The notes beneath the pieces are model-generated. The model saw only the letters and a program-made list of their open reading frames with translations. It was not told where the DNA came from and searched no databases. A DNA stretch of 53,642 nt from Ruminococcus sp. (GTDB lineage: Bacteria > Bacillota > Clostridia > Oscillospirales > Ruminococcaceae), in contig JAGCHA010000104.1 in the NCBI GenBank assembly GCA_017649325.1, positions 1 through 53,642 of the forward strand, given 5' to 3'. This document shows positions 19,081 to 24,752 of this stretch, piece after piece (the first letter of the stretch is position 1; each line of letters begins with the position of its first letter). The position numbers and the translations under genes were made by a program.

Positions 19081-20307
19081 TCAAAGCTTGTTCTTGAATT
19101 TTTCGTTAGCCTTAGCAACTTTTTTTCGTTCCTTAGCCTGTTTGAGCATATCCGCCTTTGAAAGGCTCTCGCCCTCAGGGATAGCATCATCATCATCAAG
19201 GAAGCTGGAGAGGCGCTTCTTGAAAGCACCGCCGTCTCCGTTTGAAAGCATAACACTGCGTGCCTGATTTGGATTTACTCCGTGCATTGCCGAGCCCTGA
19301 TAGATTGAACTCTGACCGCCTACGCCGTAGGGAGCTGCCTGCGGGAAACCGCCCTGCTGAGGATAACCGTTAGGCTGATAAACAGAACCGTGTGCTCCGC
19401 CGTTGTATGGACTTGCCTGCGGATAGCCGCCCTGCTGCGGGAAGCCCTGCTGGGGATAGCCCTGAGGATAGCCCTGCTGGGGATAACCCTGAGGATAACC
19501 CTGCTGCGGGAAGCCCTGCTGAGGATAGCCCTGAGGATACCCCTGCTGCGGGAAGCCCTGCTGGGGATAACCCTGCTGAGGATAGCCCTGAGGGTACCCC
19601 TGCTGGGGATAGCCCTGAGGATAGCCCTGCTGCGGGAAGCCCTCATGAGGATTCTCGCCGTTCTGAGGCGCGTAGGGATTATTGAATCCGCTTGCGCCCT
19701 GCTGCTGAGCATCAGCAGGCTGGTCGTAGAAGGACTTGACCTCTGAAGCTCCTGCTGCGGAGGAAGCAAAGGGATTTGACTCATCAATATCGAATCCGTT
19801 TACGAATTCTGCCGGAGCTGCAAGGGAAGCAGCCTCATCGCCTGTTGACTCCTGTGAAGCCTCGGGAGCTGTCTCCTTAGGAGCGTCAAAGTCATCGTAA
19901 CCGCTCATAAAGTCCTCTACCGCATTCGGTAAGAGACTTGCGGTCTTAACCGTTTCCTCCAAGGAGAGGACAACCTCACAACTGCCGTTTTCGGGTGCTG
20001 CATTCACGAGTATTCTGAGTGCATCTTCGCTCGGTTCAAAGAAGCTGTTGTCATCTATTGTGATTATCATCATCTGGTGAGCTTTCTCACCGGCTGTTAC
20101 CAACAGCATCGCCGCTACCTCTTCGGCAGGGAGAACCTCGGGATTTCCCTCGTTGATAGCAATACTCGTTACGCCTGAGAATACGTTTCCCGATTCTGCA
20201 ACGATTAGTGCAAGACAGGCATCAGGGTCAGCCTCTAAATACGGGTAACGCTGCTTCAGGATACCAGCAAGGTATTTCGCAGTCTCGTAAAGTGAATTTA
20301 TTTCCAT
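19081..20307 (-). CDS. Catalytically dead cytidine-deaminase-fold protein with PQQGY-repeat tail
   Basis: A 408-residue cytosolic protein, last main gene of the TerY-P-like operon. Residues about 25-135 follow the cytidine deaminase pattern: an [14 protein letters not shown] strand and turn, a helix at the CAE position, the [19 protein letters not shown] segment in place of the PCGAC zinc motif, and a C-terminal [10 protein letters not shown] like the LLPxAF of Cdd. The zinc Cys residues are gone (LPAEE for CAE, EPSEDA for SPCGAC), so no deamination is expected. An acidic linker leads to about 75 residues of [14 protein letters not shown] repeats (plus-strand about 19420-19650), then a Gly/Ser-rich and a Lys-rich C-terminal helix ([16 protein letters not shown]). 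AAAGGAA precedes the start. It may be a substrate or scaffold of the neighbouring kinase and phosphatase. The fold call is by eye. Confidence 0.7.
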
Positions 20308-20368
20308 ATACTGCCTATTCCTTTCTAAAAGATTCTTTTCTGTTTACAAACTGATCACTATTATATTA

Positions 20369-21283
20369 TCATTCCGTCTCAACGTGCTTTTTGAGTCTTT
20401 CTGCCTTTCTGTCGGCTGCACGCTGTTTATTGGCAGATACCTCGGAAGCTATCAGCTCCGACTTCTCCTCAAGCAGCTCCTTGTCATAGATACATGAGAG
20501 TGAGATATCATCCTCTGTTCCGAAGTGAGCACGCTTTGTAAGGTTATTGACAATGATATTCTTGAAGCTGTCAATGTCGCCCAGCTGATTTGTTATTATG
20601 GTATGATAATCAAGAAAGTCAAATTCGCTTCCAAAGGATGTATAGAGTCCGTCAGTCGAAGTGAACATGGCGATGAGCTTCTGCTTATCGCGGTAGAAAG
20701 CACTGAACAATCCGGCTGCATTTGAATTGCACATCGACGCCGTAACGTTCGCCGGGGCAGCTTCATTATACTCCATGGGCATCACAGCCTTTCCGTCATC
20801 GAAGAGAGCGACCAGTGTACCGTCACCAATCTGTACGCCGAAAGTGAACTTTTTCCCTGCGACTCCGACAATCAAGGTCGTGCCATAATATGATTCAGGC
20901 TGGATAGCTTCAAATTCCTCTTCCGTGAATTTGCTCTTTTCCTCTTCTGTTACAGGATTGTTCTTTATATGCTCTTCAACAAGACGATTCCAGTCAGAGA
21001 TTATCTGCTTCTGGATATTTTTGATTATCAACTTGTGATTCTTGGGAAAGCTCTCTTCAAAGCTCTCCTTATCAGCATAAAACCTGTCTATCGTTGAGAT
21101 GGTTGCCTCAACGGCAAACTTCGAGCCTATATTACTGCGAAAGTGCTTTTTGCTGCCGTGACCGTCGGCTACGACGCATACGGCATAATCATCACAGACC
21201 TTATAGGCAGAACTGTCCTGACAAACCAGACCTGTCTTTTCATGACTCGCACCCATGACCGAGTGACTGAAACCATTGAACAT
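20369..21283 (-). CDS. PP2C-family serine/threonine phosphatase
   Basis: Cytosolic metal-dependent protein phosphatase of 304 residues that would reverse the neighbouring kinase. Motifs: GLVCQDSSAY (an N-terminal Asp), VVADGHGSKKHFRS (metal-binding DGHG), QIGDGTL, TSTDGLYTSF and TEDDISLS (a C-terminal metal Asp). A charged helical tail (about 270-304) follows. It belongs to the PP2C_2 type found with TerY-like vWA proteins. It lies 48 bases after the vWA gene and 61 before the pseudo-deaminase gene. Confidence 0.9.
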   Translation of the reverse strand: MFNGFSHSVMGASHEKTGLVCQDSSAYKVCDDYAVCVVADGHGSKKHFRSNIGSKFAVEATISTIDRFYADKESFEESFPKNHKLIIKNIQKQIISDWNRLVEEHIKNNPVTEEEKSKFTEEEFEAIQPESYYGTTLIVGVAGKKFTFGVQIGDGTLVALFDDGKAVMPMEYNEAAPANVTASMCNSNAAGLFSAFYRDKQKLIAMFTSTDGLYTSFGSEFDFLDYHTIITNQLGDIDSFKNIIVNNLTKRAHFGTEDDISLSCIYDKELLEEKSELIASEVSANKQRAADRKAERLKKHVETE

Positions 21284-21331
21284 TAAATTTCGGACCCCTT
21301 CCAGTATTATTTATCGGGCGATAAGGTCGGT

Positions 21332-23545: not shown

Positions 23546-23587
23546 ATAATTACATCCTTTCCGTTAGTGGTATGTTCTGTCATAGTA

Positions 23588-24622
23588 TTAATCCTCTTCA
23601 ATCCCTGCGGTAGTTACAAGTCTGAAATTGATACGGTTGGAAAGACAGAATTTATGTACATAAGAGTTTTCAAAGCAATGGATAGTGAGATTTGTGCAGT
23701 ACGAGAAGGCGTTGGTATCGATGAACTTGACGCTGTCTGGAAGATAGAGCTTTCTGAGCTTTTCGCAGCCTGAGAACGCCTCTGCGCCGATACTGCTGAC
23801 TGTATCCGGGATGTCTATCGTTTCAAGGCTCGTGCAGAACGAGAAAGTGCTGTCCTCTATCTCAAGTATGCCTGAGGGTATCTTCACCATCGCGAGTTTA
23901 GCACACTGGCAGAACGCGCCCTGCTTTATGACCCTGAGCGAATTGGGAAGCTCAAGACCTCTCAGACGCTTGCACGATGAGAACGCATACTCGCCTATCG
24001 CAAGCAACGATGAAGGAAGCTTGACTGTTCTGAGCGAACCAAAGCCGTCGAAACAAAAGCTCTCTATCTTGGTATAGCCCTCTGCTATCTCGATATTGCT
24101 TCTCAGACGGTATCTTACAGCATCTATCGGTCTGAACACCTTATCGTCGATGCTCACGCGCGCCGCCTTCTTTTCGGTCACGGGTTCGGGTTCGTTGTCG
24201 TCGTTGACTATCCTCAGCGGCGATTCATACGGCCAGCCGATAAGATAGGTGAAGCAGGCAATAACGAATTCCGCAGCATTTTCAGCAAGGAACACATCGC
24301 CGAGCATGAAGCTCTTCGCCTTCATGATGGCTATCTCCCTGTTATCGTCCGCAAGAAGCATCTTGAACACGCCCTGATTGTACATGTTCTGCAGCAAACG
24401 GCGTTCCTTGTCATGGTCGGGGATGTGGTCATAGAGCAGACCGATAAACTGTTTTTTGTTCATTACCGCTCTCGGACCGTTGTCCACGACTATAGCTCTT
24501 AGCTGATGCTGAAATTCGATAGTGTTCTCAAAGCCCTCGATCGTCTGCGGAACAGGTGCTCCGCAGGACGGGCAGGCGACATATTTGGTTTTTAATTCAG
24601 TACCGCATTTTTCGCACTGCAT
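23588..24622 (-). CDS. Zinc-ribbon protein with BspA-type leucine-rich repeats
   Basis: First gene of the operon, 344 residues, no signal peptide. The N-terminus is a zinc ribbon with Cys3, Cys6, Cys17 and Cys20. The middle (about 30-145) is a helical domain of unknown type. Residues about 185-330 are five to six BspA/LRR_5 repeats of about 23 residues (pattern I..AF..C..L..+.LP.S). BspA repeats are usually on surface proteins, whereas this one appears cytosolic because it has a zinc ribbon and no export signal. It is probably a protein-interaction platform for the kinase/phosphatase module. Confidence 0.8.
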   Translation of the reverse strand: MQCEKCGTELKTKYVACPSCGAPVPQTIEGFENTIEFQHQLRAIVVDNGPRAVMNKKQFIGLLYDHIPDHDKERRLLQNMYNQGVFKMLLADDNREIAIMKAKSFMLGDVFLAENAAEFVIACFTYLIGWPYESPLRIVNDDNEPEPVTEKKAARVSIDDKVFRPIDAVRYRLRSNIEIAEGYTKIESFCFDGFGSLRTVKLPSSLLAIGEYAFSSCKRLRGLELPNSLRVIKQGAFCQCAKLAMVKIPSGILEIEDSTFSFCTSLETIDIPDTVSSIGAEAFSGCEKLRKLYLPDSVKFIDTNAFSYCTNLTIHCFENSYVHKFCLSNRINFRLVTTAGIEED

Positions 24623-24723
24623 AGTTTCCCTCCTGATATTAACGCTCAGCGAAGAGGGGCAGCATTAAAAAACTGCTGCAAGCCAAGCAAAATTGTATTA
24701 AAATCGTAATCTATTATAGTTTA

Positions 24724-24752
24724 ATTATATCACTTATTGGTATAAAAGTCAA
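24724..24752 (-). promoter_or_regulatory. Promoter of the TerY-P-like operon
   Basis: Minus strand TTGACT (24747-24752), a 17-bp spacer and a perfect TATAAT (24724-24729). It leaves a leader of about 95 bases containing a GCAGCA/TGCTGC hairpin. The rest of 24753-24888 is AT-rich and featureless. Confidence 0.88.

Follow-up and report, generated by a model that had tools for sequence, protein, structure and literature searches.

A conserved five-gene unit in Ruminococcus combines a TerY-P-like Ser/Thr phosphosignalling triad with two fixed partners, one of them probably derived from a deaminase

The TerY-P triad was reportedly described by Anantharaman et al. in 2012. As summarized in a later paper, it is made up of a TerY-like vWA protein, a PP2C phosphatase and a kinase with a C-terminal zinc ribbon (PMC11090510). 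Here we analyzed contig JAGCHA010000104.1 of a Ruminococcus sp. genome (assembly GCA_017649325.1), all 53,642 nucleotides of which we call the window, and which carries a triad of this kind within a five-gene unit on the minus strand. The window triad has the same three components as TerY-P, including the C-terminal zinc ribbon of the kinase, and its PP2C gene adjoins the vWA gene. Unlike TerY-P, it has a different kinase subfamily with different motifs, the gene order kinase-vWA-PP2C, and two extra conserved genes, which we named partner A, a leucine-rich repeat (LRR) protein encoded first, and partner B, encoded last.

An initial annotation, made from the sequence without database searches, had placed five minus-strand genes behind a promoter at 24724-24752, and we found both the open reading frames (ORFs) and the promoter there. 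It had also likened the kinase, vWA and PP2C proteins to the parts of TerY-P, in agreement with their Pfam matches, the zinc-ribbon cysteines of the kinase and the vWA motifs. The features of the unit, all on the minus strand, are as follows.

24724..24752, minus strand: sigma-70-type promoter with an extended -10 (TTGACT-17-TATAAT, 11/12 consensus match)
23588..24622, minus strand: partner A, 344 amino acids (aa), N-terminal zinc ribbon, presumed helical domain and BspA-type LRR (PF13306, LRR_5, 3.8e-56)
22202..23545, minus strand: Ser/Thr kinase with a C-terminal zinc ribbon, 447 aa (PF00069, Pkinase, 3.2e-11)
21332..22183, minus strand: TerY-like vWA protein with motifs of the metal-ion-dependent adhesion site (MIDAS) type, 283 aa (PF00092, VWA, 3e-11)
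20369..21283, minus strand: PP2C phosphatase, 304 aa (PF13672, PP2C_2, 4.9e-33)
19081..20307, minus strand: partner B, 408 aa, probable zinc-less cytidine-deaminase-derived domain and tail (homology to zinc-bearing relatives passing PF00383)
19429..19643, minus strand: imperfect tandem repeats coding for the YPQ-rich tail of partner B (Tandem Repeats Finder, periods 27-84)

To count the relatives of this unit, we scanned the GTDB species genomes with the kinase and retained the best 80 of 233 relatives as loci. Gene presence and order were counted by tblastn; ORF-based gene maps contain false antisense ORFs. The closest named kinase loci belong to Ruminococcus flavefaciens YRD2003 (99% kinase identity) and related rumen genomes, which places the window probably within the R. 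flavefaciens group. All five genes were present in identical order and strand in 74 of the 80 loci, and in the remaining six the contig stops 88-1067 bp beyond the kinase. The gene order that the initial annotation had proposed to look for in relatives is therefore conserved, and the two extra partners are genuine members of the unit. From partner A to partner B, the intergenic gaps in the window are 42, 18, 48 and 61 bp, and the median gaps in the operons of relatives are 24, 43, 40 and 51 bp. A strong terminator between the genes, which would have spoken against a unit, was not found: the four gaps hold no terminator-like site, and two weak ones (6 pairs) on the minus strand of 19081-24622 both lie within the kinase gene. 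An Rfam scan of the window returned nothing at gathering scores.

The promoter, read from 24752 to 24724, carries a TG before its -10 element and ranks best of 21 sites in 10 kb on both strands (shuffles, 12.5 ± 4.1). A stricter promoter pattern was observed no more than 220 bp from the LRR start in 69 of the 77 relatives tested among the 80, against 63 of 4000 random 220-bp stretches. These conservation counts indicate more than a chance adjacency of five genes. We regard it as virtually certain that a conserved unit exists here, made up of the five genes with their promoter, and the genes would be co-transcribed as a single transcript.

We further examined 148 genomes of the family and 120 genomes of the genus, the latter probably overlapping the 80 loci. 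In the family sample, kinase matches of at least 59% identity were present in 12 genomes, including that of the window. At ten further, more distant loci of the family, the complete set of five is present in order, nine times on a single strand; in the tenth, L040, the last gene is inverted and adjoins two GGDEF-looking genes. An eleventh relative, L012, is a 3677-bp contig with the LRR, kinase and vWA genes. A profile of partner B matched 11 family genomes at E<1e-20, each time on the contig of a close kinase, and the twelfth kinase genome, G055, offers a short contig only. In the genus sample, at cut-offs of E<=1e-150 for the kinase and E<=1e-15 for the deaminase-like partner B, the kinase was found in 88 genomes and partner B in 80, all within the 88, while 32 genomes have neither.

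The initial annotation had reasoned that partners regularly found away from the triad would argue against a unit. This is not what we observed, apart from a small number of additional partner B copies elsewhere. Among 88 deaminase-like matches in the genus sample, 78 follow the kinase on its own strand at a distance below 9 kb. Two further copies (L219, L220) belong, together with adjacent PP2C and vWA genes, to fragments of the operon at the ends of contigs, three (L214-L216) lie upstream of a triad kinase with a GGDEF gene between, and two (L217, L218) are extra copies beside periplasmic-binding-protein and GGDEF genes with no triad in view; G540 has a match on a separate contig, and those of G613 and G533 are weak. 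Second copies thus occur, yet every carrier genome in both samples has the kinase. From the co-occurrence counts in family and genus, we rejected the idea that the deaminase-like gene is independent of the kinase. The ratio of nonsynonymous to synonymous substitution rates (dN/dS) was 0.01-0.08 for the four other operon genes against five relatives.

The initial annotation had read partner B as a pseudo-deaminase with a repeat tail. Searched by itself, the 408-aa protein gave no match to any family of Pfam, NCBIfam or PADLOC up to E 1, and the deaminase fold was undetectable from it; the fold came into view through zinc-bearing relatives. A profile of ten family members picked up ORFs of deaminase length in other genomes (best E 2.8e-15), including a pair, L069 and L072, that passes PF00383, and it matched the window genome's own deaminase-like ORF (CAE...PCGAC) at 6.9e-5. 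Two operon relatives, L158 (25.1 bits) and L034 (25.4 bits), just pass PF00383 (cut-off 25). In the PDB, the family profile matched cytidine deaminases at E 0.41-1.3, behind the repeat protein RPB_PLP3_R6 (0.0043, no single stretch passing), and the zinc-bearing L158 relative matched blasticidin-S deaminase at 0.044; these deaminase matches agree in register with the catalytic motifs and are not significant alone. Through its relatives, these sequence profiles support the view that partner B probably derives from a cytidine-deaminase-type enzyme. Compared with the PF00383 family, its domain appears homologous and two same-operon relatives keep the zinc motif, whereas the window copy lacks the Cys ligands, falls below detection, and adds a Q/P/Y/G tail, an NPF motif and a basic C-terminus.

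At the zinc-ligand sites, the window protein reads PAE (60-62) and PSEDA (92-96), and the Cys ligands are gone. We collected 83 homologues; in this set at least two loci are duplicated (L034/L187, L032/L168) and three members are truncated. The full zinc site ([HC]xE plus PCxxC) is kept in 12 of them and not in the other 71, two of which (L038, L123) are cut short. Thus the term pseudo-deaminase suits the window copy but not the homologues that keep the whole site. In a FastTree phylogeny, the zinc-bearing members fall outside the main, large zinc-less clade, which has weak support (0.227). Dollo parsimony on this one tree gave five losses of the zinc site, four of them in operon proteins, and this count is uncertain. 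The dN/dS of the zinc-less domain was 0.07-0.10 against four relatives and undefined against the fifth; values near 0.1 indicate that the domain is maintained by purifying selection and is not decaying.

Partner B consists of the putative deaminase-derived domain (approximately residues 1-130), the NPF motif at 178, the Q/P/Y/G repeat tail, Ser383 and the basic C-terminus. Among 79 sequences over 240 aa, 75 have the NPF motif and 73 the basic C-terminus. The repeat tail is encoded by the imperfect tandem DNA repeats listed above, as the initial annotation had it, and the YPQ repeats can be absent (L156, L186, L154). When 73 C-termini were aligned, one column held Ser in 67 sequences and Thr in 4, and it corresponds to Ser383 in the window; the residue may cap a helix, serve as a phosphosite, or do both.

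The zinc ribbon of partner A gave a weak N-terminal Pfam match below the cut-off. A profile of the LRR protein's N-domain matched strongly at 11 loci across the 148 family genomes, all of this kinase's locus type, and partially (4.7e-11) at the contig end in G055; other matches are weak and mostly to the zinc ribbon, one of them covering 131 residues in G036 (1.4e-4). In L101, from another family of the order, an LRR_5 protein directly precedes a kinase-vWA-PP2C triad. The LRR partner, which the initial annotation had called unusual, is a fixed member of the unit but less odd than supposed. Elsewhere, a weakly MORN-matching protein precedes the triad of L099, a DUF6273 protein comes after that of L046, and L042 combines a kinase for which no triad was called with a nearby Sel1 protein. 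By hhalign, the middle domain of partner A matched the L046 set weakly (E 6.3e-5, probability 64.5%) and four single sequences at E 0.0045-0.12; five shuffles of one of these gave 0.087-0.6. Homology of these triad-adjacent N-domains to that of partner A is suggestive only. We also noticed five paralogous genes sharing an N-terminal region near the triad of L046 (7345-18925), of which one scanned paralogue matches DUF6273, together with a gene that by eye resembles a reverse transcriptase. In L036 (11190-15985), a MoxR-like AAA ATPase, an LRR protein and a DUF2201/VWA-like protein lie between the LRR gene and a hydrogenase-like gene (see below), and a similar set occurs in L154 and L156.

The catalytic-loop motif YQDLNDGGFFI is present in all 80 operon kinases. 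Judged by known kinase motifs, we take the catalytic Asp158 to be retained and the catalytic-loop Asn to be replaced by Gly163; lower-identity kinases of other triads mostly retain the Asn. Lys45, Asp158 and the DxD motif are kept. The zinc-ribbon cysteines 325, 327, 346 and 349 are invariant in 13/13 kinases, no zinc-ribbon Pfam model scores above its cut-off on the kinase, and its C-terminal part gives weak zinc fingers only. The vWA protein carries DTSGS (57), GVTSLG (124) and TDG (160), found by pattern in 72, 64 and 71 of the 72 relatives read, and the PP2C motifs DGHG, STDG and EDD were found by pattern in 74, 68 and 65 of 74. PDB searches with the kinase and vWA proteins returned generic matches only. 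Judged from sequence, the kinase may be active.

Two neighbourhood features were not part of the initial annotation: a sensory-hydrogenase-like gene and a link to diguanylate cyclases. The neighbours upstream of the operon, all on the minus strand, are as follows.

24889..26565, minus strand: sensory-[FeFe]-hydrogenase-like protein, 558 aa, a possible partner (PF02906, 1.1e-21, plus the FeS domain PF04060)
26608..27717, minus strand: DivIVA-like coiled-coil protein, 369 aa (weak DivIVA/Wag31 matches below cut-off)
28730..29947, minus strand: GGDEF protein (PF00990, 6.7e-20)
29962..31350, minus strand: periplasmic-binding-protein-like gene (PF13407, 2.6e-44)

The hydrogenase-like gene is the next gene upstream of the operon and is present in 63 of the 80 loci. 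Its cysteines are invariant in the window and 62 relatives (63/63), comprising eight of ferredoxin type, four of the H-domain and four in a Cx2Cx4Cx16C motif (Cys 12-57, 168, 189, 297, 301, 393, 396, 401 and 418). We assigned those that presumably bind the H-cluster by their motifs. At the position aligned with Met353, the window reads STC, with SPC commonest among the listed variants; prototype [FeFe]-hydrogenases have MPC here, where the window has Ser two residues before the second H-domain Cys. No PAS domain was found among the Pfam matches of this protein to E 1. According to a study of sensory [FeFe]-hydrogenases, groups C and D have the Cx2Cx4Cx16C spacing, and in a sensory group without PAS a Ser or Thr replaces Met353 (PMC8163306). 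The neighbour shares with Tm HydS and Tam HydS the two N-terminal [4Fe-4S] motifs, the H-domain cysteines and the Cx2Cx4Cx16C motif (PMC8163306), but it differs from group C enzymes in having no detected PAS domain.

In the family sample, near-full-length hydrogenase-like matches of at least 56% identity were observed in six genomes, including that of the window, all with the operon kinase. The gene also lies beside a triad with no deaminase-like gene called in L204, L207, L208 and L212 (the L212 contig ends soon after); in L204 and L212, the readable two of the four, the triad kinase has lost its catalytic Asp. For Ruminococcus albus, one report proposes H2 sensing by a putative group C sensory hydrogenase that accompanies a putative Ser/Thr phosphatase (PMC6776011). 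Both Ruminococcus loci tie a putative sensory hydrogenase to a putative Ser/Thr phosphatase, whereas the R. albus HydS cluster lies with a ferredoxin-only hydrogenase and an alcohol/aldehyde dehydrogenase, and the part of that report at hand does not mention the five-gene module (PMC6776011).

The DivIVA-like gene lies 42 bp upstream of the hydrogenase-like gene and occurs in 62 of the 80 loci. In 58 of the 80, the LRR gene has a relative of the binding-protein gene upstream of it, divergent in 50 and on the same strand in eight. Downstream of the operon, a gene at 18245-18781 (minus strand) is interrupted in the window by an in-frame stop at codon 55; L110 has an intact copy of 178 codons, which matched no Pfam family at E up to 0.01. 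At 3493-8142 (plus strand), the window encodes a 1549-aa subtilase with a dockerin domain, which makes it probably a cellulosome-type protease.

Homologues of partner B also form a second, paralogous group with its own low-complexity tail. Of 12 loci checked, which were not randomly drawn, 11 have the zinc motif and an adjacent GGDEF gene on the same strand (L158, L160, L161, L166, L170, L172, L177, L191, L192, L194 and L195), and L190 has neither. The GGDEF domain is Pfam-confirmed in five, and in four of these five proteins there are Cache-domain matches below cut-off. Within the operon itself, 12 of the 74 loci carry a GGDEF gene inserted after PP2C and before the last gene. In L038 (11978-18736), seven tandem GGDEF-like genes, several degenerate by eye, are located between the PP2C and deaminase-like genes. 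The window also has an EAL-domain protein at 11111-13045 (minus strand; PF00563, 7.6e-60), which shares it with the GGDEF gene listed above. The GGDEF neighbours of the paralogues, the GGDEF insertions and the L217/L218 copies, all counted without a background rate, point to cyclic di-GMP (c-di-GMP), and the output of the operon may involve this messenger.

Based on these observations, we propose that the unit is a Ser/Thr phospho-switch which is linked to redox state or H2 and acts on a scaffold derived from a deaminase; this proposal as a whole we hold tentatively, as a serious possibility a little short of probable. The five genes would give one transcript and a cytoplasmic module for reversible Ser/Thr phosphorylation, in which the zinc-ribbon/LRR protein would be an adaptor, the kinase and the PP2C phosphatase would set the phosphorylation state, and the vWA protein would be a metal-dependent docking hub. 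Partner B would be the dedicated scaffold or effector and the presumed substrate of the kinase, probably phosphorylated in its disordered tail, with Ser383 as the first candidate. Judged from the neighbouring genes, the input would most likely be the redox or H2 state, read through the sensory-[FeFe]-hydrogenase-like protein, and the output would touch c-di-GMP signalling. A bolder version, in which a cytidine deaminase of rumen bacteria has turned into a non-catalytic scaffold with phosphorylation-controlled output, wired to an H2/redox hydrogenase-like sensor and to c-di-GMP, and with a prion-like Q/P/Y/G tail that assembles or disperses with phosphorylation, seems improbable to us.

Several observations weigh against the proposed switch. 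The operon kinase is absent from 32 of the 120 genus genomes (18 of the 65 best), so it is not essential to the genus, and near relatives are not independent observations. The loop Asn is Gly in all 80 kinases, which makes kinase activity uncertain. The conserved Ser matches the pattern of a helix N-cap box (S-x-x-D/E), and may therefore be conserved without being phosphorylated. Several long loci (L134, L165, L168, L171, L173 and L187) lack the hydrogenase-like gene, which in G135, G035 and G090 lies on a different contig from the operon. GGDEF genes are common in these bacteria, and the link counts stand without a background rate.

Could the unit simply be an ordinary TerY-P triad that belongs to the Ter network of metal and oxidative stress and has gained two genes specific to its lineage? 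Its component set is that of the published triad (PMC11090510). In seven loci (L041, L202, L203, L205, L206, L209, L210), a close paralogue of the kinase and PP2C lies in an operon kinase-PP2C-ManA-like-TerD-AIM24, with TerD and AIM24 Pfam-confirmed in L041 only; a sigma-70-type factor follows in L203. However, these TerD-linked paralogues have lost the catalytic Asp in 6/6 readable cases (the motif in L209 could not be read). The initial annotation had noted no Ter genes nearby, and indeed neither TerD nor TerC was found in the window's genome (84% complete), nor TerD in any of the 80 loci (in 54 of them, 9 kb or more is covered on each side). Linkage to TerD-family genes is common in TerY-P triads without being obligatory. 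Another kinase type in the same family, 28-31% identical over part of its length, is the TerD-linked one: all 13 family genomes with it carry TerD, nine on the same contig, against six of the 12 with the window-type kinase, one of them on the same contig but 26 kb off. The motifs also differ (DLNDGG...DCDN in the window kinase, DLSNNN...DIDS in the TerD-linked type), as does the gene order. The window's kinase family has a Ter-linked cousin and is not itself at a Ter locus. We rejected assignment to the Ter system and give the ordinary-triad explanation a low probability.

A part in anti-phage defence, as a module with a TerY-P-like kinase cassette at its base, appears less probable still. Such a role would suit the patchy distribution (kinase in 88/120 genus genomes) and short PADLOC matches of the kinase C-lobe to the PD-T4-6 and mad6 models (best 1e-11), and one source reports OB-fold-kinase TerY-P-like modules as stand-alone defence and TerY-P accompanying CoCoNuTs (PMC11090510). 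Yet the best PADLOC stretches span only about 37-110 kinase residues, only the LRR protein among the four others has a PADLOC match (0.011), and gene order and promoter are stable genus-wide, with signalling genes in the flanks and strong purifying selection. Defence assignment from the short kinase matches was rejected. It is unlikely, but to be taken seriously, that the zinc-bearing form is the true one, a regulated nucleoside or nucleotide deaminase, with the window copy inactive but still tethering partners. The 12 homologues with the complete site, their place outside the large zinc-less clade and the zinc motif in 11 of 12 paralogue loci would fit this; the 71 without the full site and the low dN/dS of the domain in the window's lineage, with no sign of decay, argue the other way, and the number of losses is uncertain, with weak support for the large zinc-less clade. 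Finally, the kinase might be a pseudokinase and the module a nucleotide-sensing scaffold in place of a phosphorylation switch, given Gly for Asn in 80/80 and a lost catalytic Asp in 8/9 readable paralogues at other loci (FQGL, YQAL, YHAL, YQYL, YHQM). But the operon kinase retains Lys45, Asp158 and DxD, paralogue L213 keeps YQDL, and the PP2C motifs are kept, and we consider this explanation distinctly improbable.

The triad is known; in the open-licence papers of PubMed Central (PMC), we found no description of the five-gene unit in its fixed form, of the series from enzyme to pseudo-enzyme, or of the hydrogenase-like neighbour. A bacterial Ser/Thr signalling triad of unclear purpose thereby gains a fixed pair of partners. 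With zinc-bearing and zinc-less forms in one operon position, the conversion of an enzyme into a signalling part becomes directly studiable. If the hydrogenase link of the proposed phospho-switch is true, the unit would be a candidate for the way in which fibre-degrading bacteria of the rumen sense H2 or redox state, which would bear on fermentation and methane.

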